DNA of 64,000 nt from positions 1,422,637 through 1,486,636 of the forward strand of contig NZ_AP027059.1 in assembly GCF_030295325.1 (NCBI RefSeq), in the 5' to 3' direction. Position 1 is the first letter of the stretch. Each line of letters starts with the position of its first letter. This DNA is from Haliovirga abyssi (GTDB lineage: Bacteria > Fusobacteriota > Fusobacteriia > Fusobacteriales > Haliovirgaceae). The notes beneath the pieces were generated by a model. That model did no database searches. It was not told the DNA's origin and saw only the letters and a list, made by a program, of their open reading frames with translations. The position numbers and the translations under genes are program-made. Positions 1-62,106 of the stretch are shown piece by piece.

Positions 1-1103
1 TATTTTTTTATCATACCTATTGTTCTATTTAATAAATTTCCTAAGTCATTAGCTAAATCTGCATTTATTCTTTGTACCATTGCTCTTGTAGAGTAATCTC
101 CATCCATTCCAAAATGAACTTCTCTCATTAGAAAATATCTAAAAGCATCTAATCCATATTTTTCTACTTCACTCTTAGGATTAACTACATTTCCTTTTGA
201 TTTTGACATTTTTTCTCCTGCTGCTGTCCACCATCCATGTGCAAATATTTTACTAGGTAATTTTTCTCCTGCTGCCATTAACATAATTGGCCATATTATA
301 GCATGAAATCTCAATATATCTTTTCCTAACAGATGTACAACTTCTCCATTATTCCAAAACTTATCAAACATTTCAGGGTTGTTTTCATATCCTACTGCTG
401 TTAAATAGTTTGTCAAAGCATCAAACCATACATATACTACATGCTCTTTATCTATTTCTAAAGGTATCCCCCATTTAAATGTGTTCCTCGAAATTGATAA
501 ATCTTTTAATCCTTGTTTTATAAATGAAGTTACTTCATTTTTTCTATATGAAGGTTGAATAAAATTAGGGTTATCTTCTATATATTTTAATAATTTATCT
601 GCATATTTTGACATTTTAAAAAAATAAGATTCCTCTTTTACAACTCTTAATTTTTTTCCACAATCTGGACAACTGTCTCCTTCTCCCATTTGTGATTCAG
701 GAACAAAATTTTCACACGAAACGCAATAATGTCCTTCATATTCTCCTTTATAAATATCCCCATTTTCATATACTTTTTTTATAATTTTTTCTACAGATTT
801 TATATGTCTATCTTCTGTTGTTCTTATAAAATCATTGTTATTTATATTTAATAAATTCCACATTTTTTGAAATTTAGGCGTTATTGAATCTACAAATTCT
901 TGAGGACTCATTCCTTTTAATTTTGCAGCTTCTTCTATTTTTTGTCCATGTTCATCTGTTCCTGTTAGAAAAAAAACATCATATCCTGCTGTTTTTTTAT
1001 ATCTAGCTAACACATCAGCTGCAATTGTAGTATATGCTGAGCCTACATGCGGTTCTCCATTTACATAATATATTGGCGTTGTTACATAAAAATTTTTACC
1101 CAT
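1..1103 (-). CDS. metG: Methionyl-tRNA synthetase, 3' end outside window
   Basis: Charges tRNA-Met with methionine in the cytoplasm. I translated the minus strand from ATG at 1101-1103 and it stays open to base 1, so about 367 N-terminal residues are present and the C-terminus is missing. The class I signature is HVGSAY near residue 19, and KMSKS falls near residue 300. A four-cysteine zinc site (CVSC ... CPDCG) lies in the connective region, as in zinc-binding MetG enzymes. An AGGAGG Shine-Dalgarno at 1115-1120 supports the start. It lies 37 bp behind the chemoreceptor gene and is probably transcribed with it. Confidence 0.96.
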   Translation of the reverse strand, partial: MGKNFYVTTPIYYVNGEPHVGSAYTTIAADVLARYKKTAGYDVFFLTGTDEHGQKIEEAAKLKGMSPQEFVDSITPKFQKMWNLLNINNNDFIRTTEDRHIKSVEKIIKKVYENGDIYKGEYEGHYCVSCENFVPESQMGEGDSCPDCGKKLRVVKEESYFFKMSKYADKLLKYIEDNPNFIQPSYRKNEVTSFIKQGLKDLSISRNTFKWGIPLEIDKEHVVYVWFDALTNYLTAVGYENNPEMFDKFWNNGEVVHLLGKDILRFHAIIWPIMLMAAGEKLPSKIFAHGWWTAAGEKMSKSKGNVVNPKSEVEKYGLDAFRYFLMREVHFGMDGDYSTRAMVQRINADLANDLGNLLNRTIGMIKK

Positions 1104-1140
1104 TTTTATTATTTCCTCCTATTTTTTATTGTTCCTAAAT

Positions 1141-2913
1141 TCAAATTTCTTTTAATTGATTTTTATCATTTTCCTCTATTTTAAAATTGCTTATGTTTTT
1201 AGACAGATTTAAAGTTAAATCTATCAGAATATTTATTTCAGCTAAAGAATAATCCAATAAATCTCTAACACCTTTTGAAATGTCACTATTATTTATAGAT
1301 AACTCTTCTATTCCAGTAGAATTATCTGTGATTTCTTTTACTACTTTTGTTATTCCCTCAGAAGAATTAGTTTGATCTTTTGTTAATTCTGTTATTTTTC
1401 TTATCTCTGTATCATTTTTATCAATTATATTTATAATAGATAATATTACTGTTTTTACACTTTCTGTTATCTCTAATCCTTTCCTCACACTTATTTCTAT
1501 ATCATCATTTGCCTCTTTTACAGTACTTACCTCTGTTTGGATATCATTTACAAGTTTTTCAATTTTTTCTGTTTCATCACTTGTTTTTTCTGCTAATTTT
1601 TTTATTTCATCTGCAACAATGGCAAACCCTTTTCCTGCCTCACCTGCTCTTGCAGCTTCTATTGATGCATTTAATGCAAGCAAATTAGTTTGATCTGACA
1701 ATGAATTTATAGCTGTTATAATATCTCCAATTCCTAAAGATATACTTATTAAATCTTTTATCTTTTTTTCTGCTCTTTCAACACTACTGCTTATATCTAA
1801 CATCCCAACTGCCATTTCTTTTATTTTACTTTCACCTATTTTCGCTGTATCTATTGTCTCTTTTGATAATTTCAAACTATCTTCCACATTATTTTGAACT
1901 TTTTTCCCAGTTTCTGCTATTTCTTCTAGCTCTGCTAAAGTCTCTTCTATTCCTGCCGTTTGATTTCTCACATTATCAAGAACTACCTCTATATTTTCTT
2001 CTAAATCTTCCATTCCTTTTTCAATTATCTTTTCATTTAAATTATTATTTCTTTTATTATACCTATTTCCTTTTGAGACATTATCTAATACAAAAGTTAT
2101 TTTTTCTGTCTTTTCACTAACTTCAAATATTAATTGTTTTATACTATATATTATATCGTTTAAATTACCAACAAAACTATTAAAATATGTTGCTAATTCG
2201 CCTATTTCATCTTTTCTTTTTACAAAAATTCTTTTCGTTAAGTCTCCTTTCCCTTCAGCTATTTTTTTTAATCTATCTGCAACTATTTTTAAATTTTTTA
2301 ATAAGTATATTATAATAATATAAATTCCAATAAATAGAACAATTATTATAAATAATAATATATACAAACGCAATTTCAAACTATTAATTTTTTTATAAAA
2401 TGATTTTGTATTTTCATTTAATTGAGTTTGTATAATCTCATCTAATTCTTTCATGCTTTTTAATGCTGGACCATCACTTATCTTCACTGTTGAATCTATT
2501 TCTTTTACAGTTTTATTCTCTTCTTTTAATTTTATTGCTAATTTTAAATTTCTATTATATTCTTCAAAAGTATTATTAATTATTTTCAAATCATACTTTT
2601 CTTTTTCTCCTAAATCATTAAATTTTAAATACTCTTTATAATTTTCTCTAAATGAATTCATCTGTTTTTCAAAAGATTTTATTTGCTTTTCTTGACCTCT
2701 AATTATATAATTTTTAAATTGATGTATTGCACCACCATATCCAAAATTATCTCTTATTTTTGAAATTAATACAGATCTTCTCATTATATTATTATCAATT
2801 ATACGCCACTGCTGTTGTAAATTATTTATTTCTATAAATATAAATAATCCCTTAACTACTAAAATAGCACCAATAATGCTCATAAAAATATTTAACTTAG
2901 TCTTTATTCTCAT
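1141..2913 (-). CDS. Methyl-accepting chemotaxis protein
   Basis: Transmembrane chemoreceptor that would signal to CheA/CheW. It has 590 residues: a membrane helix at about 10-30, an extracytoplasmic helical sensor region of roughly 150 residues, a second membrane helix near 183-205, a HAMP segment ([16 protein letters not shown] onward), and a long coiled-coil signalling domain. The conserved hairpin [19 protein letters not shown] is intact. There is no C-terminal CheR-binding pentapeptide. The ligand cannot be told from sequence. It starts 13 bp after the Rpn-like gene and ends 37 bp before metG. A chemoreceptor implies a motile relative, since non-motile Fusobacterium usually lacks these. 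Confidence 0.93.
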
Positions 2914-2926
2914 TATATATTCCCCC

Positions 2927-3769
2927 TTATTTTTTCAACTTTTCAATCTCCTCTTCACTTAATCCCGTCTTTTCCATTATAGTTTTCAAATCTAAAACAT
3001 CTAATAAACTTTTTGCTATCTCTATATTTCTCTTTTTTATCCCTTTTTCAATCCCTTTTTCAATCCCCTTTTTTTCAGCTTTTTTTAGAGCTGCATCTTC
3101 ATCTCTTAACCATTTTAATCTAGCTTCATAACTTTCACGCTCATCTTTATTTAATGACATCTCTTCTAATATCTCTACCGCTTTTTTTATTGTAGATACC
3201 TCTTCTAGCTCTTTTGGAAGTTTATTTTCTTCATATTTTTCTGCTCTTTTTAAAAAGTTTACCCATCTATCTAACATTGTACTGAATTTTTCATTATATT
3301 TCTCTAGTTCTATAAAATGTATCTCTAAATGATCTATAAACTCATCTTTACTTTCCATATTTATTATTTTATAAATATTATGATAATTTTCCTCATCTAA
3401 ACATCTAAAATTTAATATATTTATGCTTATTGTCTTCTTTAAATTATCATAATTTATCCCTGTGGATAGTTGACCTGAATATAATCTTGCCCAATAATAC
3501 AATGCTCTCTTGTCAAAGTATTCCTGATCAATTATTTGCATTTCTATATTATACCAACGCCCTCTTTGATCTACCGCTTTTATATCCAATATTGATAATT
3601 TATCATTTCTAAAATTCTTATCATTATAAGGGTTTTTAAGTTCTAACTCTGTTACTCTATCATCTTCTGATACTACTGAATTTATAAAATCTAATAACAA
3701 ATCCTTATTATCTTCCGAACCAAATAATTTTTTAAATACAAAATCTACTCTCGGATTTATTCTACACAT
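2927..3769 (-). CDS. Rpn-family PD-(D/E)XK nuclease / putative transposase
   Basis: Belongs to the Rpn/YhgA-like family, whose studied members are DNA endonucleases that promote recombination. Visible marks are the N-terminal [15 protein letters not shown], a nuclease core with [19 protein letters not shown] (the D...ExQ catalytic pattern), and the typical C-terminal charged repeat (EKGIEKGI-type) before a short helical tail. The open frame begins with GTG at 3778, but AGAGGTG lies directly over it, so ATG at 3767-3769 (MCRINPR) is the better start. These genes are often mobile. This one sits between pdxA and the chemoreceptor, next to a MITE-like repeat. Confidence 0.85.
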
Positions 3770-7166: not shown

Positions 7167-7545
7167 ATTTAATCTCCTTTCAATAAAAAGTAAGATACAC
7201 TTTCTACTATTTTCATCTTTTTCTATTATATCCAGATATCATTATTAATTTTAATAAATCTTTCCAGTTTCAAGAATTTTTTTCCTCTCTCCTATCTTTA
7301 CCCTCTTTTATTCTTTTATTCTTTTATTCTTTTATTCTTTTTATAATTCCCGTGCATTTGTGTAAAATAATAAATTTTCTTGGTGAAATTCCCGTTAAGC
7401 AGCTGTCATTGTTTGAGCGTAGCGAGTTTGACAGTTGTAGGGAATGAGCCTTAGAAAATTATTATTTGGAACATTAGCACTTGATTTTTTGTTACTTTTT
7501 CATCAAGGAAAAAGTAAAGATTCTCTAATTTCAAAAATAGAAAAC
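7167..7545. other. Non-coding stretch with hairpins and simple repeat
   Basis: This stretch between wzz and uvrB holds no convincing gene. It has an 8-bp tandem repeat at 7304-7342, an inverted repeat AGCTGTCA/TGACAGTT at 7401-7436 around GAGCGTAGCGAG, and a perfect 9-bp hairpin TTACTTTTT/AAAAAGTAA at 7492-7517. From memory, such GAGCGTAGCGAG and TTACTTTTTC...AAAAAGTAA blocks occur as dispersed non-coding elements in many low-GC genomes. A 71-codon plus-strand frame across it (7444-7659) has no ribosome site or family likeness. Confidence 0.55.
7304..7342. repeat. 8-bp tandem repeat (TTCTTTTA)n
   Basis: Almost five consecutive TTCTTTTA units upstream of uvrB. Simple repeats of this kind change length by slippage. 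It lies about 140 bp before the uvrB start, so it could move promoter spacing, but no promoter was identified there. Confidence 0.8.
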
Positions 7546-7569
7546 AAGCCGAAACAAATGTCTCGGCTT
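7546..7569 (-). terminator. Probable rho-independent terminator after wzz
   Basis: On the minus strand, AAGCCGA ... TCGGCTT forms a 7-bp stem followed by GTTTTCTATTTTT. It lies about 100 bp after the wzz stop codon. Confidence 0.6.
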
Positions 7570-7666
7570 ATGAATGTTCAAAAAATATTATTCTTTTGTT
7601 CTTTTGTTCATAAAAAACTCTTAAGCCCAGTAAATAAACAAATTGATATCCTATTTTAAAACCATT

Positions 7667-8857
7667 CTAATCTTCTTTTATTTTATTCCAATCTACTCCT
7701 TTAATAAATTCTTTAAAAAATGCTAAGAAAATCCCTAAAAATATTCCCAACACAAATCCAATTATTACATTTAATTTTTTATTAGGCTTAATTGGAACTT
7801 TTGGTGTTATTGCTGGATCCAATATATTAATAACACTATTTTCTTTAACTTCATCTATTTTTGCTGTTTCATTTTGAGCTAATAACATTTTATAAATACT
7901 AACTGTTGTTTCCACTTCTCTTTGTAACCTTGACATTTTTATTTTTATATCTGGCACATCTTTTAAAGCAATCATCTCTATTGGAAGTTTTTTATTCCCT
8001 TTTTCCAAAGCTGTAATTTGTCCTTGATATACAGATATCTCTTTTTTTAATTTTTTAACTTCTATATTTTCATTTCCTGTAAATTGTTTTAACACTTCTA
8101 ATTTTCCGCTTAATTCAAATACATTTGTTTTTAATTTTGTTAATATTTCTGTTAAAGCTTGTGCTTCATCCATAATTGAAACTGTATTATATTTTTTTTC
8201 TATATTTTTTAATTTTTCTTCTTGTGTCTTTAATTTTTTTTCTACTAATTTTAATTGCTTTCCTATAAACTCTCTATTTCTTTTTGCTTTTGTAAGATTT
8301 TTTTCTTTAATATATCTTTCTAATTCCGTATAATAATAATTAGATATTTCTGCACTTTTTTCCGCATCATCTAATTCTACATCTACTGTATAAGTTCCAC
8401 TTTTATCATCTTGAGCTACTGTAACTATATTTTTAAGCCATTCTGCAATATCTGTAATTGTTGGTTTATCTTTCTCTTCAAGCTTTGATAGATCTATTTC
8501 GTTTTTTTCTATATAATAATCATATAATTTTAAATTTTTAACTATATCCTCTCTAAAAGTACGACTTTCCATTATTGTTATGAAATTAATTCCTGATTTT
8601 CCACCAGAACTACCCAACATACTGGCAAAAGGTATTGAGCTAGCTAATGCACTAAGACCGTTACTACCATCTCCTTGTTCTGCCATAAATACCATTTCTG
8701 ATTTATAAATTTTTGGCATTCTTATAGAAACCACCGCTGCAATAATTGTTATTAATATTGTGATCCCTATAATTAATTTTTTATTTTTCCATATAACCTT
8801 TATTAAGTCCAATAGATCAATTTCATCTTCTTCTACATATTGTCTGTTTTCTTCCAC
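7667..8857 (-). CDS. Wzz/GumC-type polysaccharide chain-length protein
   Basis: Inner-membrane polysaccharide co-polymerase that would set the length of an exported surface polysaccharide. It has 396 residues: a short cytoplasmic start with DEIDLLDLIKVIWKNKK, a first membrane helix near 33-50, a large helical extracytoplasmic region with coiled coil around 190-330, the proline-rich P-[KV]-x-P-x-x-P-N-K-K motif, and a second membrane helix before the end. No tyrosine kinase domain is fused. It is last in a run of minus-strand genes; no other polysaccharide genes are next to it. Confidence 0.9.
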   Translation of the reverse strand: MEENRQYVEEDEIDLLDLIKVIWKNKKLIIGITILITIIAAVVSIRMPKIYKSEMVFMAEQGDGSNGLSALASSIPFASMLGSSGGKSGINFITIMESRTFREDIVKNLKLYDYYIEKNEIDLSKLEEKDKPTITDIAEWLKNIVTVAQDDKSGTYTVDVELDDAEKSAEISNYYYTELERYIKEKNLTKAKRNREFIGKQLKLVEKKLKTQEEKLKNIEKKYNTVSIMDEAQALTEILTKLKTNVFELSGKLEVLKQFTGNENIEVKKLKKEISVYQGQITALEKGNKKLPIEMIALKDVPDIKIKMSRLQREVETTVSIYKMLLAQNETAKIDEVKENSVINILDPAITPKVPIKPNKKLNVIIGFVLGIFLGIFLAFFKEFIKGVDWNKIKED

Positions 8858-8900
8858 TTCTAAGCCTCCATTATTTTAAATTTAATATTTTGTTTATTTC

Positions 8901-9800
8901 CTAAATATTCTTCAACATATCTATTTCTAATCCTTCAATTGCTAAATCACTATTTTCAAAACTGTTTTTAGCAACTTCTAGTTTTTTTTCTATATCTTCT
9001 TCACTATCTTCTGGATCATGATGAGTTAAAAATAGTTTTTTTACACCTGCCTTTTTTGCATTTTCTGCTGCCATTTCTGGAGTACTATGCCCCCATCCTT
9101 GTTTTTTTAAATAAGTTTTATAATCATATGCTGCATCATGAACCAACACATCTGCATCCTTTGCAAATTGAATTAATTTTGCATCTCCACCAATGTAACT
9201 TTCTACATCTGTTGCAAAAACAAAACTTTTACCCAAATATTCAATTCTATATATATACACTCCATTTTTAGGATGATTATACCCTTTTAATATTTTTACT
9301 ACAACATCATTTTCTGAAGATACAAAATCAGCATGATATTTATTATATACTTTTAATTTTTGACTATCTTTTTTTAAAATCAATACATCTGTATGATTTA
9401 TATCTGTACAGTTTTTCAAAGAACCCATTTCGTCATAACTTACTGGAAAATATGAATATGCCATAGAACTAGAAATCACCTCTTCTATACCATCTTTTAA
9501 AACCTTTGGACCATACAAATTTATTTTATAATTACCAAAATATGCTGGCAAAAATGAAGGAAATCCTTCTGTGTGATCTTTATGAGTATGTGTAAATAGT
9601 ATATTTATATCAGAATGTTTTTTTTCAGCTGCTATTTTTTTCCCTAAACCTATTATCCCTGTTCCTGCATCTAATATTATTATCCCAAAATCTGTTTCAA
9701 CCTCTATACATGTAGTATTCCCACCATATTTTACCCCTTTGTTTCCTGACAATACATAACTTCCTCTTACCCCCCAAAACTTAATATTAAAAACTGCCAT
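8901..9800 (-). CDS. MBL-fold metal-dependent hydrolase
   Basis: Metallo-beta-lactamase-fold protein starting AVFNIKFWGVRGS, a common opening of the PhnP/RNase Z-like subgroup. The metal motif HTHKDH is at about residue 73-78, with later ligands in FATDVES, VHDAAYD, GHSTPEMA and LTHHDPE. Substrates in this group are phosphodiesters or nucleotides; the one here is not predictable. The longest frame starts with GTG at 9812, but AGGTGG lies just upstream of ATG 9798-9800, which is the better start. The preceding GAF-HD-GYP gene ends at 9814, so the two are tightly linked, and a signalling or nucleotide role is possible. Confidence 0.88.
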   Translation of the reverse strand: MAVFNIKFWGVRGSYVLSGNKGVKYGGNTTCIEVETDFGIIILDAGTGIIGLGKKIAAEKKHSDINILFTHTHKDHTEGFPSFLPAYFGNYKINLYGPKVLKDGIEEVISSSMAYSYFPVSYDEMGSLKNCTDINHTDVLILKKDSQKLKVYNKYHADFVSSENDVVVKILKGYNHPKNGVYIYRIEYLGKSFVFATDVESYIGGDAKLIQFAKDADVLVHDAAYDYKTYLKKQGWGHSTPEMAAENAKKAGVKKLFLTHHDPEDSEEDIEKKLEVAKNSFENSDLAIEGLEIDMLKNI

Positions 9801-9813
9801 ACAGTTCACCACC

Positions 9814-11337
9814 TTATATTATCACTATTTTGTTCAATTCTTTTTTATATAATTCATAAATTTTTTCTTTTACAAATATCTCAAATATATACTTGTCCAA
9901 ATGGTTATCTTTCACTTCAAACTCCAATATTTTTAGAGCTTTTTCCACAGCCATTGGTGGTTTATAAGGTCTATCTCTTGCAGTTAAAGCTTCAAAAATA
10001 TCTAAAATTGCAAGTAACTTTGCCTCAAAAGGGATCTCATCTCCCACTAATCCATGCGGATAACCACTTCCATCAATTTTTTCATGATGCCCAGAAGCAA
10101 TTTCAGGAATTCTTTTTAATAATTTAGTCCATTTTATTCCTTCAAGAATATCATATGTAAATGTAACATGTAAATTCATTTCTCTTCTTTCTTCATCTGT
10201 TAAATTCCCTTTTTTTATCATAAGATTTTCTATCTCAAATTCATCTAATAAATTCCTATTTGTGCCATCTACATCAATAAATTCAACCATTGAAATTTTG
10301 CTAATCATATTTTCCTCATCAACAGTTACAAAACCCTTCTTATTTATATCGGAAATTATCTCATAATATTTATCTATTTTTAATAAAAGTTCTGTTTCAT
10401 AATCAGATAGCCTGTGTAATACTTTTCGCAACTCTAAGTTCTTTTTGAAATATTGAAATCTATATTTTATAGTTTCCATTCTATCATCTGTTAATCTGTT
10501 TCTTTTTAAAAGTATATTTTCTTTTATTCCTACTTTTCCAATATCATGTAATAATGCAGCATAATAAAGTTGTCTTATCTCATCTTTATTAAAAGTTTTA
10601 TCTTTGTATGGTCCATAATCTATTCTGTCTATAGCTTTTGCTAATTCTATAGCATATCCTGCCAACCTACGCGAATGTCCTGATGTAGTAGTATCTCTTG
10701 CATCTAAAGTACTTACCATTGCTTCTATAAATGATTGAAATAGTTCTTCTATCTCATTATATAATCTTGTTCTTTCTAATAATATTGCTGCCTGTGACGC
10801 TAAAGATGTTATTATTTCCTCTTCATCTCTTGTATAAGAAATAATATTTTTTTCAATTGTATCAGGCTCTCCTAATACAGTTCCCTCTTCCTTTTTTTTA
10901 TTTAATAATTGTAAAACTCCAACTACATCTCCACTATAATCTTTCATAGGAATAACCAACATATTTATAGTTTTATAATTTATACTTTTATCAAATGAAT
11001 TATTATATGTTATTTTTAATAATGAATCTATATTATTTACATTTTTAATATTTAACGTTTCTCCTGTTAATCCAACATATCCAGATATACTTTTTTTATT
11101 TAATGGCAATGTAAACTCTTTAAATGGAAATTCTCTAGAAAAATTTTTTGTGATTTTAAATTTTAATTTTTCTTCTTTGTCTATAATTTCTTTTATATAT
11201 AAACTTCCACCATCACTATTTGTTATTTTAATGCTCTCTTCAAGTATTAATTGTAACAACTTATTGGTATCTTTTTCTGCTGACAAAGCAATTCCTATTT
11301 TATTTAATTCTTTCATCAAATCATTTTTCGTTGCCAT
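9814..11337 (-). CDS. GAF-HD-GYP protein, predicted cyclic-di-GMP phosphodiesterase
   Basis: Soluble 507-residue protein with an N-terminal GAF sensor domain (about 20-195) and a C-terminal HD-GYP domain. Catalytic marks are HSRRLAGYAIELAKAI, LLHDIGKVGIKENIL and GHHEKIDGSGYPHGL. Studied HD-GYP proteins hydrolyse cyclic-di-GMP to GMP. About 90 residues, mostly predicted helical, separate HDIGKVGIK from the second LTDEERREMNLH segment, longer than in typical HD-GYP proteins. It lies between the GH57 and MBL-fold genes in one run with a second HD-GYP gene. Confidence 0.93.
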   Translation of the reverse strand: MATKNDLMKELNKIGIALSAEKDTNKLLQLILEESIKITNSDGGSLYIKEIIDKEEKLKFKITKNFSREFPFKEFTLPLNKKSISGYVGLTGETLNIKNVNNIDSLLKITYNNSFDKSINYKTINMLVIPMKDYSGDVVGVLQLLNKKKEEGTVLGEPDTIEKNIISYTRDEEEIITSLASQAAILLERTRLYNEIEELFQSFIEAMVSTLDARDTTTSGHSRRLAGYAIELAKAIDRIDYGPYKDKTFNKDEIRQLYYAALLHDIGKVGIKENILLKRNRLTDDRMETIKYRFQYFKKNLELRKVLHRLSDYETELLLKIDKYYEIISDINKKGFVTVDEENMISKISMVEFIDVDGTNRNLLDEFEIENLMIKKGNLTDEERREMNLHVTFTYDILEGIKWTKLLKRIPEIASGHHEKIDGSGYPHGLVGDEIPFEAKLLAILDIFEALTARDRPYKPPMAVEKALKILEFEVKDNHLDKYIFEIFVKEKIYELYKKELNKIVII

Positions 11338-53872: not shown

Positions 53873-53905
53873 AACCCATAAAGACACCTTGGTCCTTTAT
53901 AGGTT
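53873..53905 (-). terminator. Leader terminator (attenuator) upstream of purC
   Basis: Minus strand AACCTATAAAGGACC ... GGTGTCTTTATGGGTT hairpin followed by seven T. It lies between the purC promoter and the purC start, and the leader frame's stop codon touches the foot of its 5' arm. Confidence 0.75.
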
Positions 53906-53976
53906 TAGTTGTTTTCTATATTAATTATGTATATATTTGTTTTTATGTTTTTAATTTTCTGAAGCTTATTTTTCAT
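53905..53976 (-). CDS. purC leader peptide (23 codons)
   Basis: ATG at 53974-53976 behind GGAGGG, 23 codons rich in Lys, Asn and Ile, ending AAC AAC TAA at 53905-53907. It lies between the promoter and the attenuator. There is no run of a single regulatory amino acid. The stop codon overlaps the foot of the terminator hairpin, so a ribosome finishing here could block the hairpin. No homologue is known to me. Confidence 0.5.
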   Translation of the reverse strand: MKNKLQKIKNIKTNIYIINIENN

Positions 53977-54017
53977 TTTCCCTCCAAAATTGTCCTCGTT
54001 CACTAATAAGATATCTT

Positions 54018-54046: not shown

Positions 54047-54104
54047 TAAAAAAATTTAGTTTTATAGTGTCAAATTTTGTAGTTTAATTGATATATTAAA
54101 TAAA

Positions 54105-54141
54105 AAAGCCCCACCTCTTTAAATTAAAGAAATGAAGCTTT
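54105..54141 (-). terminator. Rho-independent terminator after RADAR-side gene debris
   Basis: 17-bp stem (several G-U pairs), AAAGCTTCATTTCTTTA / TAAAGAGGTGGGGCTTT, 3-nt loop, then TTTTATTT on the minus strand. It closes the transcription unit that includes rdrA, rdrB and the fragment at 54165-54371. Confidence 0.8.
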
Positions 54142-54164
54142 CTATTTTCTATTTAAGAATTAAA

Positions 54165-54371
54165 TTACTTCTTTATTTCTGTATTATCAGAAACTATTAC
54201 ATCATTTTTATCTGCTGTGACAGAAACAGCCTCTTGATTTACTTTCACTAATTTTTCATTTGTTTTATCATATACATAAATATCATACTCTCCAAATGGA
54301 ACAAATGAAAATACAGCTTCTATTTTTTCTCCATCTACAGATACACTAGAACTTATTGCATTAGCATATGG
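54165..54371 (-). pseudogene. C-terminal fragment of an unidentified protein
   Basis: Open frame of 68 codons with no start, bounded upstream by a stop at 54372-54374. It reads NAISSSVSVDGEKIEAVFSF then VPFGEYDIYVYDKTNEKL and ends SDNTEIKK. The beta-strand pattern and FGEYDIYVYD suggest a carboxypeptidase-regulatory or Ig-like surface domain. The 5' part has been lost, with the breakpoint near the end of the RADAR operon. Confidence 0.65.
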
Positions 54372-54395: not shown

Positions 54396-54455
54396 TCATC
54401 TTCTGATAAATTCAAAAAATATAATAAGCTCTTCTTCTATAGTTTTATTCATCAT
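54396..54455 (-). pseudogene. Truncated third frame overlapping the rdrB stop
   Basis: ATGATG overlaps the rdrB TGA and opens MMNKTIEEELIIFFEFIRR before a stop. The ATGA overlap is typical of a co-translated next gene, and the frame stops just before the deletion junction at about 54372-54395. It may be the beginning of a lost RADAR accessory gene; this is inference. Confidence 0.35.
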
Positions 54456-57091
54456 TTTTCATTTCTTCTCAAAAAAGATTGTTCTAATCCCAACGCTCTA
54501 ATCTTATCCACCCATTCATAAACCATCATTGGTTTATTCACCCTTTCTCCATTTTCATCCAGTAATTTTTCCATTGCCAGAGTAATTAATGCATACTCAT
54601 TTTCCAAATAAGTCCCAAAAATACCTTGATCATCTGTATTAATTGATACTGATAATTGCGAACTCTTTTGATTTTCCTCTTCACTCACATTCAATCCAAT
54701 GTTATAAAATTTAGTTATTGGGTGTCCATCATATCTTTTAAAGTTTCCTATCACATAATTAGAACTTGGATTTGCTTCAATACAAATATTTTTATTTGCC
54801 AGTTCTTTTTGTATAGCATATTGAATTTCTGTTACGATTTTTCCCATTTTTTTATTTATTTTAATCTCTTCACTTTTTATTCCTCTTTCTTTTACGTTCT
54901 TATTAAAATGATATTTTCTATAAATTTCTACTATCTCTTCATTTTTTCTTATTTCAATCATTTCTTTTCTAGGATCAATAGAGCATTTTTCCCAAAAAGT
55001 TAAGCTCGATTTAAGTTTATAATCTTTATCTTTATAAATATTTGGATCATCTCCCCTTAATTTCCAAGCTCTATAATAATTTTCATAAGAATATTCTTTT
55101 TCATATATTTCAGAAACTAATCTATAATAATCAGAGCATAATTTTGATTTTAAATTTTCATCAATTTCAATATTTAACTCTCTTATTTTTGCCAGCATCC
55201 AAGCTATATTATCTAAATATATTTGTTTTGGCATAATTAGTGTATAATTTTTATCTTTATAATATTTATTTGCATCTACCCCCAATGCTAATGCGTGTCC
55301 AATCCTATCTCCTTGTTCATAGCCAAGAAATCTAATGGTTTCATCTATTGCTCTCAATCCATCAATTAAGCTCAAAAAATCTTCTCCTGCGTGATAAGTA
55401 ATCCCTAAATTAAATATTTCATCTTTCCCAAATTCTTCAAACTTATTTGTTATTTTATAATTCCTCAAATATCTAAAGCATTGAGCAAAGACTTCTGGTC
55501 TACATCCAATTTCAAAATTTGCAGCATCTATTCCATATATTCTATTTTTAGCTTCTCCACTACTTTTTCTCAAATTTATTATTGCATCTGCCTGTTTTTT
55601 TAGTAATCTTCTCAACTGATAATTCAAAGGTTTTACGTATAATACAATAGGAGTATTCTTTGCCATCTCCATTATCTCTTTATATTTTTCTTGTTTTTTT
55701 ATAAAGTGAATTACATAAAAATATTTCTTTTTATCTTTCACCTCTTTTTTTATACTTGTATTCTCAAAATTCAAATTTTTAAAATCTTTAACATCATAAA
55801 ACATTTCACTTTCTATATTTTCATCTAATTTTTCAATTGTTTTAGACAATTCAGCATTATTTTTTTCAGGTGCTATTCTGGCTTCTAAATAATTAATATG
55901 TTGGTCATAAAGAGATGAATTTATAGCCATACTTACAACAGCTTTCTCATAAATTCCTTTTCCTAAAAATATATTTTTTCTATTTTGATAATCTGAAAAA
56001 TTACCAAATCCCACTCTTCTATTTATTTGAATCAACTCATCTCTAAAACGTTCTTTTATCAATATGTAAGTATGAATTAATCTTTTGTATTTTATTATCT
56101 CTTTATCGCCTTCAAAAAATGTTTTAAAAATAGTATACAAGAAAAATCGTTCACCATATAACAATATATTTCCATTATATTTCATATTATCTTTATTATA
56201 ATTATTTAAGCTAATCTTTTTTGGAATAATATAGTCTGGTATTTCTCCATTTAATTTTTTTCCATTTGAATATTTCAACTTATTTATTTCATTTTGAAGA
56301 TCTCTAATGAAAAGTTTTATTTCTGAATTATTTTTTGATTTTAAAATATAATTCATTTTAAAATTTTCTACTTTTTCTATTTTTTCTTTTAAAATAAATT
56401 TTTTATATAAAAACAATCTGATTGCAGAAGCTTTTTTGACTAACGCTTTTAATTCTAAAGAAAAATTTTCAAATCCATAATTTACATCTGGAGATAATCT
56501 AGTCTCTTTTTCAATTTTTTTAAATTCTTTATCTCTGCCTTCGATATTATTCATCAAAGAGATCCAAGCTAATTGAAAATGAGGTGCTGATCCTTTTAAG
56601 TGAAAATGGTTTTCAGCACATCCTTTTTTCATTATTTCTTTTAGCATTGTATTATCAGTTGATATTATTGGTTTCCAAGCAAAAATTGTTCTATTATATG
56701 ATATGGTAAAATCTTTGTATGCAAAATATGCTGTTGTCAATAAATCTTCGCCCAATAAATATGACAATTCTCTCCATCTCAGTAATTCTTTGTATTTACA
56801 TAAAGGAACTCCTTTGTTTTCTATTAATATTCCTTTTGTAAAGTTTGCTAATACGTTAAAAATACTATCTTCTTTTACTCCTTCTAATTTTTTCCAGTTT
56901 GAATCTAGCAAGCTATATACATTTTCTATTTCATCTTTGTTATATTTTGTTGGATTTTCATATGAGTATGTGGCTATAAATAGATCTCTATCTACATTTT
57001 TTTCTTTTATGGAGTTGTAGTATTTATATAACATTTTTTCTGGATTTTGCTTTTTAAAGAGAATTTCTATTGTGGCTCTAATGTTATCCAT
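54452..57091 (-). CDS. rdrB: RADAR system deaminase component RdrB
   Basis: 879-residue adenosine-deaminase-fold protein of the RADAR anti-phage system. Zinc-site motifs: ENHFHLKGSAPHF (H162, H164), GITYHAGEDFLSL, DRIGHALALGVD, and SVSINTDDQGIFGT with the paired aspartates. The long inserts between motifs and the length far exceed housekeeping adenosine deaminase (about 340 residues). In studied RADAR systems RdrB makes a very large shell and deaminates adenine nucleotides or RNA adenosine to inosine on infection. The start overlaps the rdrA stop (TAATG), so both are co-translated. Confidence 0.88.
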   Translation of the reverse strand: MDNIRATIEILFKKQNPEKMLYKYYNSIKEKNVDRDLFIATYSYENPTKYNKDEIENVYSLLDSNWKKLEGVKEDSIFNVLANFTKGILIENKGVPLCKYKELLRWRELSYLLGEDLLTTAYFAYKDFTISYNRTIFAWKPIISTDNTMLKEIMKKGCAENHFHLKGSAPHFQLAWISLMNNIEGRDKEFKKIEKETRLSPDVNYGFENFSLELKALVKKASAIRLFLYKKFILKEKIEKVENFKMNYILKSKNNSEIKLFIRDLQNEINKLKYSNGKKLNGEIPDYIIPKKISLNNYNKDNMKYNGNILLYGERFFLYTIFKTFFEGDKEIIKYKRLIHTYILIKERFRDELIQINRRVGFGNFSDYQNRKNIFLGKGIYEKAVVSMAINSSLYDQHINYLEARIAPEKNNAELSKTIEKLDENIESEMFYDVKDFKNLNFENTSIKKEVKDKKKYFYVIHFIKKQEKYKEIMEMAKNTPIVLYVKPLNYQLRRLLKKQADAIINLRKSSGEAKNRIYGIDAANFEIGCRPEVFAQCFRYLRNYKITNKFEEFGKDEIFNLGITYHAGEDFLSLIDGLRAIDETIRFLGYEQGDRIGHALALGVDANKYYKDKNYTLIMPKQIYLDNIAWMLAKIRELNIEIDENLKSKLCSDYYRLVSEIYEKEYSYENYYRAWKLRGDDPNIYKDKDYKLKSSLTFWEKCSIDPRKEMIEIRKNEEIVEIYRKYHFNKNVKERGIKSEEIKINKKMGKIVTEIQYAIQKELANKNICIEANPSSNYVIGNFKRYDGHPITKFYNIGLNVSEEENQKSSQLSVSINTDDQGIFGTYLENEYALITLAMEKLLDENGERVNKPMMVYEWVDKIRALGLEQSFLRRNEK

Positions 57092-59634
57092 TATTCTATT
57101 CCTTTAGTTGAATTAATTTTTTCTTTTATTTTTTCCACAAAGTCTTTTATCCTAATTTTTCCTTTTTCAGTTTTCATTTCTTCTGCTTCTGTTTCTTTCC
57201 CTTCAATAAAATCAATTATTTCTTTTTTATAATCTTCACTTATTTTTTTATTATTTTCAATAATATTTTTTATATTTGAAAATGAATTTCTTATAGTATT
57301 TATATTAGTAATCCTATTAGTAATCTTTAAGCCATCTATTTCAGTTATAAGTTCTCCTATCAATTTATCTATATCAACTTCTACTTTAAATATATCATTA
57401 AATTTCCCTTCTAATTCTTTTTTTTCAATATCTATAATAAAATTATAAATATCACATATTTGAGCATCATCTTTCAATTCTAATTTTTCATCTGCACCTA
57501 AATTAAAATTAATTTCTAATTCTTTAAAATTTTTAAAGAATGTTTTGAAATGAACAAAATAACTTTTGTTTACAGCCTTATAATCTTCATTTAATATGCG
57601 TTCTAATATTTCAATATTCCCAATATAAAAATCACTATCCGAAGTAGGTTCTCTATTAAATAAAAATCCTAGAATATCAAATTGAATTTTTGTTGGTTTA
57701 CTATTATCTTTTTTATTATAGTAAACTTCTTTTTCTTTTCTATAAATATTATTTTTTATAAAATTAAATTCTGATGATTTTATATTAAATTTATTTAGTA
57801 ATTCTTCAGCATCTAGTTTCGAACCATTTTTTTTATATTCTTCACTAAAACTCTTAATTTTATCTACTTTCATATCTCTTCTATCTCTTTTTTCGTTCGA
57901 ATCCTGTTCCTTTCTCATAATTTTATATTCAATAGGATTATATAAATATCCACCTAATAATTTTTGATAATCACTATATGTTTTTTTAGCTGCCGCTTTT
58001 TCAACTTCTGCAACTTTTATAACTTTTGTAAATTTTGCCTCTTTTGCTTCTTTTACTGCTTTTGCATATAGCTCATACAACATAATTGAATAAATCATTT
58101 TTATTGCATAAATAAATTTTTTATCTTGTAATTCTATTTTATACCTATCTGCCTTATTCAAAACAAATAGCAAATCTCCCAAAGATACATTTGCCCCATT
58201 GTTATTTAGATTTACTATATTTTGATATTCTATTTCCTGTTCATAATCGCCTTTACCTCTTGCTCTTGCTCTTGCTCTATATTCATCATCTTTATCCAAC
58301 AATGAATAAATATCTTCAATTTTATTTATTATAAATTTATTTCTTTCTGTAACATCTCTTTTTACAAGTTCTTTTAAAGCATTTTGTTGTTGATAAGTCA
58401 AATATGTTTTTATCCAATTTTCAAATATATACTCTTTAAATTTAATAAAATTTTCACTATTTATAATTTCAATTCTTTCTTTTTTCCTTTTTTTCAAATC
58501 TCTCACATCTTCCATTTTGACTAATAAAACAATTAATTCTACTAACCCTCTTAAATTATCTGGAATTATATATTTACCATCAATAAATATCATATCAGTT
58601 TTTAAATATATTTGCTTTCTTACGAATTGATCTATTATACCCCCTTCAATTTTATTACCATTTTCATAATTCACTTCCACTTTTGAAGTCATTCTTATAT
58701 CTTCTAATTTCGGCAAATATAATCTTCTTTCCAATGGTATCAATTTTTCAAGATATTTTTCAGTCATATTTTTAATTTCATCATAGCTCATAGCTTTTTT
58801 ATCTAATAATGATTCAAATTCTTTTAAATAATTTCTCTCAACTATTTGTTCTAATTGCTCTATTTTAATTGCCATTAAAATCACAACTTTTGGAATAATT
58901 AAATATTTTCTAATTTGCTCGACCATCTCATAGGCATACTCTGTATTTAAATCAATATCATCTACTTCAATTACCAATATCCCATTTTTCTCTTTCTTTT
59001 CATCATTATTCATAAATTCCAAATATGATCCAATTAATTTTTCCACATCACTCTTTAAGCTTGTACTTTCTGCTATTTTTAATAAAGCATCTAAAGCTTC
59101 TTCTTCAAAAACATCTCTTTTGTCTTTTATAATTTTTATATTTTCATAAACCTTTTCAAAAGAACCAATTATTTCTCTTTTCAAATTTTCATTTTTCACT
59201 TCATTTTTTGTTTCAATATCATTTTTAAAAGTTTGAAACATCTTTGCAATTATTATTTCCAAAATATTACTATTACCTGATAATAAAGCCGGATCTATTA
59301 CTCCAACAGAGCAAAAATTATAAGAACTTAATTTTTTATCTTCAACTGACAAATTATAATCTTTATTATTTTTCAATTTATCATTATCTTTCAATACTCC
59401 CGCAAAAGAAAGCATTGCAGATGTTTTTCCAGTTCCTCTTTCTCCTGCAAATGCAATTATATTATTATAATTTTCATGCAACTCAATTCCTTTACTCTTT
59501 AATATCTCCGCTGTATTCTTAAAAGCTTTCAAATAAACTTCATTAAATACCGATTTTTCAAATTCATTAATCTTTTCTACTTTTGCTTTGTACTCTTCTC
59601 CCAAATTAATTTTAATTACTGATTCATCTGCCAT
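57091..59634 (-). CDS. rdrA: RADAR system ATPase component RdrA
   Basis: About 847-residue P-loop ATPase. Walker A is IIAFAGERGTGKTSAMLSFA near residue 65-80 and Walker B is GILVIEVDDIDLN near residue 225; the long C-terminal half is helical and charged. RdrA assembles into rings and works with RdrB in RADAR; the pairing here with an RdrB-like gene, TAATG-coupled, supports the call. The frame opens at ATG 59652, but GGGAGATG overlaps it, so ATG 59632-59634 (MADESVIKIN) is likelier. Confidence 0.86.
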   Translation of the reverse strand: MADESVIKINLGEEYKAKVEKINEFEKSVFNEVYLKAFKNTAEILKSKGIELHENYNNIIAFAGERGTGKTSAMLSFAGVLKDNDKLKNNKDYNLSVEDKKLSSYNFCSVGVIDPALLSGNSNILEIIIAKMFQTFKNDIETKNEVKNENLKREIIGSFEKVYENIKIIKDKRDVFEEEALDALLKIAESTSLKSDVEKLIGSYLEFMNNDEKKEKNGILVIEVDDIDLNTEYAYEMVEQIRKYLIIPKVVILMAIKIEQLEQIVERNYLKEFESLLDKKAMSYDEIKNMTEKYLEKLIPLERRLYLPKLEDIRMTSKVEVNYENGNKIEGGIIDQFVRKQIYLKTDMIFIDGKYIIPDNLRGLVELIVLLVKMEDVRDLKKRKKERIEIINSENFIKFKEYIFENWIKTYLTYQQQNALKELVKRDVTERNKFIINKIEDIYSLLDKDDEYRARARARGKGDYEQEIEYQNIVNLNNNGANVSLGDLLFVLNKADRYKIELQDKKFIYAIKMIYSIMLYELYAKAVKEAKEAKFTKVIKVAEVEKAAAKKTYSDYQKLLGGYLYNPIEYKIMRKEQDSNEKRDRRDMKVDKIKSFSEEYKKNGSKLDAEELLNKFNIKSSEFNFIKNNIYRKEKEVYYNKKDNSKPTKIQFDILGFLFNREPTSDSDFYIGNIEILERILNEDYKAVNKSYFVHFKTFFKNFKELEINFNLGADEKLELKDDAQICDIYNFIIDIEKKELEGKFNDIFKVEVDIDKLIGELITEIDGLKITNRITNINTIRNSFSNIKNIIENNKKISEDYKKEIIDFIEGKETEAEEMKTEKGKIRIKDFVEKIKEKINSTKGIE

Positions 59635-59672
59635 TATTTCTTCATCTCCCATTTTGATTATATCTATATTTA

Positions 59673-59701
59673 ATAATACTATACAAATTCACGTTTTTCA
59701 A
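59673..59701 (-). promoter_or_regulatory. Probable promoter of rdrA-rdrB
   Basis: TTGAAA-17 bp-TATTAT on the minus strand, about 40 bp upstream of the start. Confidence 0.65.
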
Positions 59702-60009: not shown

Positions 60010-61263
60010 TCACTTAATCAACTTATTATACTCACTTATATCTTTATTTAAGCTTTTTGAAATATTCCCAAGATCAACAATAATAGAATGAGTTCTCATT
60101 CCAGGCCCTATAGCAATTTCTGATTTCCCATTTACCTCTTTTTCAAATTCACTAATAATTTTTTTAGCTTCATTTTTCTTATTATTAATTTTTTTAATTA
60201 CCGCTTCAATTTTACTGATTTTCTTTTTTTGTTTACTATTCAGTTTTTTATTTTTATTCTTATTGATTTCTGAATTAATCTCATTTACATTAGTTTCTAT
60301 TGTTCCAATCATTTTATTTACTTTTGTTGAAATTTCTATTACATTTATTCTATTTATTTTATATTTATTCATAATATTAACAAGCTTAGATGCTTCATTG
60401 TTATAACTCGCCGAATAATTTTCTATTGTCTTTACTGTCTCTTTTAGATTATTATTTATTTTGTTAAATTCAGGCCATTCCTTACTGCTATTTTTTATCA
60501 CAGCTGTTTTTAATGAAATCTCTTTTATTTTCCCTTTCAACTTATTAATTTTCTCAATTTCTTTATACTCATTTTCTCTAATTTGAGTTATCTTTGTCAT
60601 TAATTCTTCAAGATTGTTATATGGAGATATATCTTTTTCATTTATATTCAGATAAATTTCATCAAGAATAGTTCTTGCTTTTTCAAATTGAGTCTTTTGT
60701 TTTGCAAGAGATTGATTAATTAAAACTGTATTATTCCCAATTTGTTTTAAAATATCATTTAAATTAAATACTTTTATTAATTTATTTTTATTAAAAATCT
60801 TAACTACATCATTCATTCCTGATTGAAATTCTTTTCCATTTTTTATAATTTTATTTTTAACTACATTATATTTATTTTTTACTTCTTGAAATTGTTTCCA
60901 CTCTTTCTCATCTGAACGAAATTCTTTTTTATTTTTAGAAAGTTTTTTGTACTCTATTATAATACTATCCATCTCTTTTTTAAGGCCATTAAATTCATCT
61001 AATTCTTTTCCTAATTTTTGCATTTTTTTACTTAATAAGACAGCTATCTTTTTGTTATTAACGTTTAATTCTTCTTTTAACCCTTCATACATACCATTAT
61101 AACTTAAAAATGCATCATTATAAGCTTTTGACGATTTATTTATTTGTTGTTCTGCATTATTAAAAACTTTAGTAACTTCATTTGTTTTATACGTCATTAC
61201 TATACACCCTGATAAAGATATGCTGATTAAACTTAACATTAAAAAAATTCTTACTAATTTCAT
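60010..61263 (-). CDS. Coiled-coil lipoprotein of unknown function
   Basis: About 417 residues from MKLVRIFLMLSLISISLSGC; the lipobox LSGC gives the lipidated Cys at about residue 20. The mature protein is almost entirely charged alpha-helix with coiled coil, repeated motifs such as KKEMDSIIIEYKKLSKNKKEF and KEW-x-(Q/E)F (KEWKQFQEVKN, KEWPEFNKINN), hinting at internal duplication. ATG 61261-61263 follows GGAGGG; the frame opens at TTG 61275. It has its own terminator, so it is probably not part of the RADAR operon. Confidence 0.8.
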   Translation of the reverse strand: MKLVRIFLMLSLISISLSGCIVMTYKTNEVTKVFNNAEQQINKSSKAYNDAFLSYNGMYEGLKEELNVNNKKIAVLLSKKMQKLGKELDEFNGLKKEMDSIIIEYKKLSKNKKEFRSDEKEWKQFQEVKNKYNVVKNKIIKNGKEFQSGMNDVVKIFNKNKLIKVFNLNDILKQIGNNTVLINQSLAKQKTQFEKARTILDEIYLNINEKDISPYNNLEELMTKITQIRENEYKEIEKINKLKGKIKEISLKTAVIKNSSKEWPEFNKINNNLKETVKTIENYSASYNNEASKLVNIMNKYKINRINVIEISTKVNKMIGTIETNVNEINSEINKNKNKKLNSKQKKKISKIEAVIKKINNKKNEAKKIISEFEKEVNGKSEIAIGPGMRTHSIIVDLGNISKSLNKDISEYNKLIK

Positions 61264-61431
61264 TTTTCCCTCCAATATTTTATTTTTATCTCTCTAATGA
61301 GACATGTGCGTTATTATAACATCTCAAATCAAAAAAATCAATCTTTTTTAATCGGTTGTGTACTAAAACGTTTCATATTATACTATATATCTCTTTTTTA
61401 TTAATATAATCTGCATTAAATTATTTCATCT

Positions 61432-61540
61432 TAAAAGCACCTCTCCGTCAGCTTCGCTGCCACCTCTCCTGAAAGGAGAGGCTTTTTTCTTCAGGCTCTC
61501 CCTTTGGGAGAGCTGTCACGCAGTGACTGAGAGGGCGAAT
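61432..61540. repeat. Palindromic repeat flanking DUF559 gene, left copy
   Basis: About 109 bp, nearly identical and in the same orientation as 61902-62008. Inverted arms CCTCTCCGTCA / TGACTGAGAGG bracket two internal hairpins (CCTCTCCTGAAAGGAGAGG; CTCTCCCTTTGGGAGAG). The end of the DUF559 reading frame lies inside this copy. Confidence 0.9.
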
Positions 61541-61892
61541 CTTTCACTTTTGACTTTATAATTTCATCAATACTTTCACATACTTCTTCAAATCTATTTT
61601 CAACTTCATAATTTGAAAATCTAACCACTTCTAAATTATAGCTATTTAAAACTTTTGTCCTTGCTTTATCATATTCAATTCCATCTTCTGTATAATGTTG
61701 ACTTCCATCAACTTCTATTACTAATTTCGCTTTATAACAATAAAAATCTACAATAAAATTATCAATAACTTTTTGTTTGTATATCTTAATTGGGTAATGT
61801 CTAAGAAAATCATACCATAAATGCTTTTCTTGTTGTGTCATCTCTTTTCTAAGTTTTTTTGCTATTGAAATTAGTTTCTTGTTATAATTCAT
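61491..61892 (-). CDS. DUF559 family endonuclease-like protein
   Basis: About 133 residues from MNYNKKLISIAKKLRKEMT. DUF559 belongs to the Vsr/PD-(D/E)XK-like nuclease group: EKHLWYDFLRHYPIKIYKQKVI, NFIVDFYCYKAKLVIEVDGSQHY (D...ExDG catalytic core) and VVRFSNYEV. The last residues (SPSQSLRDSSPKGRA) are encoded by the flanking repeat. AGGAGG sits 4 bp before ATG. DUF559 genes are often found between such CTCTCAGTCA repeats, which suggests a selfish or repeat-linked gene. Confidence 0.88.
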   Translation of the reverse strand: MNYNKKLISIAKKLRKEMTQQEKHLWYDFLRHYPIKIYKQKVIDNFIVDFYCYKAKLVIEVDGSQHYTEDGIEYDKARTKVLNSYNLEVVRFSNYEVENRFEEVCESIDEIIKSKVKDSPSQSLRDSSPKGRA

Positions 61893-61901
61893 TATACCTC
61901 C

Positions 61902-62008
61902 TAAAAGCACCTCTCAGTCAGCTTCGCTGCCACCTCTCCTGAAAGGAGAGGCTTTTTCTCAGGCTCTCCCTTTGGGAGAGCTGTCACGCAGTGACTGAGA
62001 GGGCGAAT
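61902..62008. repeat. Palindromic repeat flanking DUF559 gene, right copy
   Basis: Inverted arms CCTCTCAGTCA / TGACTGAGAGG and the same two internal hairpins as the left copy; small differences are a C/A change in the arm and two missing bases. The whole can fold into a long cruciform. Confidence 0.92.
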
Positions 62009-62106
62009 TTGCATTTTAAATCCCCCCAACTCATTATAACATATTTTTCACAATCACATAAATTAAAAATATAACATACCCTACTTCTAACATTTACACC
62101 AAAACA

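Follow-up and report, generated by a model that had tools for sequence, protein, structure and literature searches.

In known RADAR systems, heptamers of RdrA dock onto a dodecamer of RdrB, and RdrB turns ATP and dATP into ITP and dITP after infection (PMC9994260). The authors of the cryo-EM structures hypothesized that the RdrA C-terminus acts as the phage sensor (PMC9994260), and three subtypes have been described, namely standalone rdrAB, Csx27-associated RADAR and SLATT-associated RADAR (PMC7699616). RADAR itself is already known, and the operon from Haliovirga abyssi that we report here is a divergent addition to it. We read this pair as a divergent, intact, standalone rdrAB operon, for which we take the known mechanism as the likeliest, and give this reading a probability of roughly 0.86. 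Throughout, the window refers to the whole 64,000-nucleotide stretch analyzed, which covers 1.42–1.49 Mb of a two-contig genome 2.7 Mb in size, and the identities of PDB entries for RdrA and RdrB structures follow PMC9994260.

Layout of the operon and its flanking DNA

A preliminary description of this DNA, made from the letters alone, had proposed a RADAR operon in a low-GC diderm. We found the ORF pair, the motifs, the TAATG junction and the 879-residue deaminase that it named all present as stated, and the host is a member of the Fusobacteriota. The rdrA and rdrB frames (Table 1) are both intact, with no internal stop or frameshift, and their lengths are beyond chance. The overlap between the two genes suggests translational coupling. 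For rdrA, our reading of the sequence makes the ATG at 59634 (847 aa) a more likely start than the ATG at 59652, since a GGGAG lies 11 nt upstream of it and the starts of relatives align there. The operon is single-copy in the host genome. The rest of the window holds housekeeping genes (uvrB, trp, pur, glyA and similar, judged from N-termini), and a reading of its predicted proteins revealed no second obvious defence gene beside rdrAB.

Table 1. Coordinates of features in the window and of TPR-protein genes at related loci (L numbers)
Feature	Position	Strand	Remarks
Terminator-like hairpin with T tail	54103-54143	minus	3 sites found vs 0.5 expected
Tail of truncated frame	54165-54371	minus	68 aa; gene debris
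19-codon ORF over rdrB stop (MMNKTIEEELIIFFEFIRR)	54396-54455	minus	no recognisable homology
rdrB-like adenosine-deaminase-fold gene	54452-57091	minus	879 aa
TAATG overlap, rdrA stop/rdrB start	57089-57093	minus	one base (A) common to both
rdrA-like AAA+ ATPase gene	57091-59652	minus	853 aa from ATG 59652
GGGAG, possible ribosome-binding site for rdrA ATG 59634	59646-59650	minus	sequence reading
Lipoprotein gene, upstream neighbour of rdrA	60010-61275		no defence match
TPR gene 5′ of rdrA, Lachnospiraceae	L030 6155-7591		
TPR gene 5′ of rdrA, Lachnospiraceae	L031 6147-7424		
TPR gene 5′ of rdrA, Lachnospiraceae	L033 710-2161		
TPR gene 5′ of rdrA, Lachnospiraceae	L040 5815-7128		
TPR gene 5′ of rdrA, Lachnospiraceae	L041 6082-7506		
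TPR gene 5′ of rdrA, Lachnospiraceae	L042 6214-7530		
TPR gene 5′ of rdrA, Lachnospiraceae	L044 2186-3463		

The flanks had been described as holding the operon's own promoter and terminator, a MITE-like element and gene debris, and these elements fared differently. We rejected the promoter-like site at 59701-59673 as evidence, as it was one of 48 such sites in the region where shuffled sequences led us to expect 47.6. The terminator-like hairpin does stand out from expectation, but it lies approximately 300 bp past rdrB, beyond the debris, which makes its description as the operon's own terminator less secure. The debris is real, consisting of the 19-codon ORF and the 68-residue tail downstream of rdrB; for the latter, no convincing relative was found among 98 genomes of Fusobacteriota. 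The repeats are also real and genome-wide (copies of ~100 bp at ~61430–62030, with five further genome sites at 88–98% identity), but they are 1.8 kb away from rdrA, with the lipoprotein gene in between. At 61430-62030, two of these ~100 bp copies flank a DUF559 endonuclease-like gene, and gene and repeats together look like a small mobile unit. On the other side, purC, purF and purM lie directly downstream of the operon, and just 5′ of purC (53880-53985) a short ORF resembling a leader precedes what may be a hairpin and T run, together a possible attenuator of the purine genes. Rfam searches detected no RNA anywhere in the window.

Family, fold and active site of the two proteins

Profile searches and structure prediction had been suggested as checks on the RADAR identity, with a closer match of the deaminase to another family as the outcome that would speak against it. 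Both proteins matched their own family in PADLOC (RdrA, E = 2.7e-16; RdrB, E = 7.7e-31) and in NCBIfam (RdrA, E = 5.1e-21; RdrB, E = 9.7e-59, residues 29–871). Their scores of 74.8 bits for RdrA and 199.7 bits for RdrB are below the NCBIfam equivalog cut-offs of 600 and 800, respectively, a cut-off of this kind being a naming threshold and not a biological feature. When compared with PDB sequences using phmmer, RdrA matched S. suis RdrA first (E = 1.1e-12) and RdrB matched E. coli RdrB first (E = 1.2e-29).

The predicted structures, modelled as single chains, pointed to the same families. The RdrB model (pLDDT 83.6, pTM 0.85) had E. coli RdrB (8fnv/8hr7) as its best PDB match, over the full length (E = 1e-26, TMt 0.72–0.76); the next matches were free-nucleoside or nucleotide deaminases, and among the non-RdrB matches ordinary ADA came first (E = 1e-5), with Cad1 reaching about 1e-3. 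The RdrA model (mean pLDDT 67.3), which was good to about residue 540 and of low confidence beyond, had S. suis RdrA (8fnu) as its top match (E = 2.9e-16); all 20 PDB matches at E < 0.001 were RdrA chains, and the next protein followed at E = 0.05. We also considered other families for the deaminase and rejected them: PADLOC CARF_ADA matched the deaminase part only (E = 6e-5), an ordinary ADA model matched at E = 1e-10 but was limited to the C-terminal 90 residues, and RdrB was far stronger than either. Pfam gave no match to a CARF domain in the deaminase. RdrB was thus the best match in both profile and fold searches, and the proposed identity is borne out by the sequences, the predicted folds and the active sites, as well as by the order and sizes of the genes.

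In E. coli RdrB (EcRdrB), zinc is bound by a His tetrad (H152, H154, H498 and H530) and the catalytic Glu is E501 (PMC9994260). The phmmer alignment placed H152/H154/H498/E501/H530 of EcRdrB opposite H162/H164/H567/E570/H599 of the window RdrB, where they form the motifs HFH (H162/H164), HAGE (H567, E570) and GH (H599), with TDD (D820/D821) completing the metal and catalytic set. The zinc His residues, the catalytic Glu and the Asp pair were invariant in 28 aligned RdrBs. The protein also carries features of the RdrB type, namely an N-terminal extension, an insertion that splits the core (164–567) and a third insertion (599–820). The spacing from H154 to H498 is 344 residues in EcRdrB and 403 in the window protein, while that from H530 to the Asp pair is 218 and 221 residues, respectively. 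Glutamates E595–E597, which belong to the 3-fold interface of EcRdrB, lie opposite EKE in a stretch that is weakly aligned.

In the window RdrA we identified Walker A (GERGTGKTS, K76), Walker B (ILVIEVDDIDLN, D231/D232) and the sensor-2 Arg (R368). At the sensor-1 position, E. coli RdrA has an Asp (D253), while the window and S. suis proteins both have a Lys (AIK in the window). Since S. suis RADAR protects E. coli (PMC9994260), a Lys is tolerated at this position, and the Asp is not family-defining.

Relatives, partner genes and distribution

An alignment-based scan of GTDB genomes identified 21 related loci, 19 of them distinct, from Bacteroidota, Lachnospiraceae/Clostridia and a single fusobacterium; rdrA and rdrB are adjacent in 18 of these 19. 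In a maximum-likelihood tree of RdrB, which had several long end branches and from which the S. suis and C. rodentium proteins were left out, the window grouped with Fusobacteriaceae UBA2433 (support 100/100) and then fell among 11 rows from Fusobacteriota and Bacteroidota (99/97). These 11 rows lie inside a well-supported clade of 21 rows (99/99), shared with Lachnospiraceae and distinct from the groups of E. coli/Aliivibrio and Pantoea/Rhizobium. Separately, we observed that a RADAR locus on a Rhizobium leguminosarum plasmid (L057 8106-10405) has adenylosuccinate-synthetase-like and DUF7002 genes ~0.9 kb past rdrB, and that a locus in E. coli NZ_CP148423.1 (L056 869-7080) has rdrA and rdrD with rdrB apparently split into three annotated pieces.

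Internal branches measuring 1.3 to 4 changes per column mark a long separation of the clade from the other groups. Together with an insertion between the metal-binding motifs that is ~60 residues longer than that of EcRdrB, this would be consistent with a RADAR-derived pair that keeps its assembly but whose substrate or trigger has changed, with RdrB acting on another adenine compound or on nucleic acid. We consider this unlikely, however, given that the full catalytic set is invariant and that the fold is nearest to RdrB and then to deaminases of free nucleosides or nucleotides.

Searching for a third operon gene, we checked both the upstream lipoprotein gene and the downstream stub in the window and found none: near the operon there was no SLATT ORF, with just the 19-codon stub downstream, and no csx27, the neighbours being the lipoprotein gene and purC. 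The operon fits the standalone rdrAB subtype. Among the relatives, rdrB of Aureibacter and Persicobacter is followed by a SLATT-like gene, whose Pfam matches do not reach the gathering cut-off; the two SLATT-like genes are 32% identical to each other. The 19-codon ORF lies at the rdrB stop, where this SLATT gene begins, and debris follows; it may be what is left of a third operon gene since lost, in which case the operon could be a decaying or silent copy that no longer works. Arguing against such decay, neither frame is broken and every catalytic residue is present, most relatives also lack a downstream accessory gene, standalone rdrAB is a recognized subtype (PMC7699616), and the stub is unlike SLATT and has no convincing likeness to the ORFs downstream of relatives' rdrB. 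We therefore judge decay to be more improbable still than a changed substrate.

At seven Lachnospiraceae loci (Table 1), a homologous protein of 425–483 aa, in which TPRs follow a short N-terminal domain, is encoded directly upstream of rdrA, at a distance ranging from an overlap to a 104 bp gap. The four members tested had no PADLOC match, and, within the open-access literature searched, this form is not among the three subtypes described (PMC7699616). The sensing side within the clade therefore takes several forms: a plain RdrA C-terminus in the window, a TPR-tailed RdrA in UBA2433, a SLATT partner in Persicobacteraceae and a co-operonic TPR protein at the seven Lachnospiraceae loci. We tentatively suggest, at somewhat less than even odds, that the window belongs to a separate lineage spanning Fusobacteriota, Bacteroidota and Lachnospiraceae, in which RdrB was kept and the sensing side was exchanged; if so, the form with the TPR partner would be a RADAR subtype outside the three described. 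Other genes were also seen beside rdrAB. Directly upstream of clade rdrA lie a gene for a metallo-beta-lactamase-fold protein in Blautia (L032 6034-7218) and one for a 710 aa protein that matched nothing in Pfam in another Lachnospiraceae locus (L037 5089-7221). In Cetobacterium somerae, a very different rdrAB sits on a 705 kb replicon (NZ_CP092520.1; L019 8759-14991 and L023), with a gene for a VanZ-family membrane protein, a possible accessory, 72 bp downstream. In goat-gut Clostridia, a clade RdrB (L034 4927-7656, the same as L035 and L036) has no RdrA-like ORF directly upstream and is possibly an orphan in a setting resembling a mobile element.

Several relatives have defence genes adjoining rdrAB, in support of a role of the clade in defence. 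The pair lies between HsdS plus PDC-S26 and HsdR in Pedobacter, and it follows HsdR in Persicobacter, an HNH restriction enzyme gene in Marinifilum and an AbiV HEPN gene in Tenacibaculum. Of 98 Fusobacteriota genomes, 4 had a substantial RdrB match. Among 396 sampled Bacteroidota genomes the number was 10 (a count that includes the search centre; four matches were full-length and clade-like), and among 399 sampled genomes of the Roseburia-like phylum it was 1, this one being the search centre itself; as the first-pass search was loose, all of these counts are lower bounds. Matches in 7 of the 11 matching Fusobacteriota genomes were short (E ~ 1e-4, frames of 334–376 aa), and we read these as housekeeping ADA and did not count them. 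That the window might encode such a housekeeping adenosine/AMP deaminase beside an unrelated ATPase, as Pfam A_deaminase on residues 761–853 and the adjacent purC, purF and purM could suggest, has next to no probability, being already contradicted by the full-length RdrB fold with its insertions, by a partner ATPase whose significant structural matches are all to RdrA, and by the pairing and defence neighbours conserved across phyla, in addition to the rarity of substantial RdrB matches in the phylum.

None of the 98 Fusobacteriota genomes passed the NCBIfam RdrB cut-off. Such cut-offs leave clade members, for example that of Aureibacter, annotated as hypothetical, and the distribution of RADAR is consequently undercounted by name. 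Single-protein scans of genome contigs and viral contigs gave no match, and neither did an alignment-based scan of viral contigs or tblastn of phage records; the empty viral-contig scan and phage-record search give no sign of phage carriage. From the patchy distribution, it is plausible that the rdrAB locus was acquired, as first proposed. Third-position GC (0.17 and 0.13 in the operon genes, compared with 0.09–0.20 in other genes) is uninformative on transfer.

Proposed mechanism and comparison with known systems

The analyses above show, for this pair, the family membership, the RdrB fold with its three insertions, the complete catalytic residues, the operon order and the clade. Returning to the reading of the pair as an intact standalone RADAR, we infer its assembly, substrate, phage trigger, expression and protective effect by analogy with the described systems. 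RdrA would assemble into a ring of AAA+ ATPase subunits, in which the variable C-terminal region would sense a phage cue, and this ring would dock over a hollow RdrB shell. RdrB would then deaminate ATP and dATP to ITP and dITP, which may poison the nucleotide pool such that infection is aborted. By this analogy, the operon most likely stops phage infection by converting ATP to ITP.

The best match of the ATPase, in both sequence and structure, is RdrA of S. suis SS993 (8FNU), which shares the sensor-1 Lys and the rdrA-rdrB pairing; the two proteins are roughly 20% identical where they align. The RADAR system of E. coli P0304799.3 (8FNV/8FNW) shares the RdrB fold, the three insertions, the zinc tetrad with its Glu and the operon order, with 17–18% identity over the RdrB fold. 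It differs in the sensor-1 residue, in its shorter insertion between the metal motifs and in its RdrA C-terminus, to which that of the window RdrA has no detectable similarity. Cad1/CARF-ADA of type III CRISPR systems, which converts ATP to ITP (PMC11645235), has a deaminase core in common with the window RdrB, but the latter has no CARF match and its fold match to Cad1 is weaker (E ~ 1e-3). SLATT-associated RADAR, found in Persicobacter and on the Aureibacter plasmid pAT1, agrees with the window in RdrB clade and gene order, and differs in having the downstream SLATT-like gene.

The closest relative that we found is the operon of Fusobacteriaceae UBA2433 (L024), with 57% identity in RdrB and 51% in the N-terminal part of RdrA. 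Its rdrA (191-3282) is interrupted past the ATPase core (191-1192 and 1192-3282), and a similar break was observed in Tenacibaculum, where rdrA (L028 7507-10008) is in two pieces (7507-8490 and 8494-10008). The UBA2433 RdrA ends in five TPRs, while the window RdrA has a different tail. With similar RdrB proteins and RdrA N-terminal parts but unlike tails, the two operons form a natural pair for swapping sensor domains, and exchanging their tails would be a straightforward test of the sensor idea.
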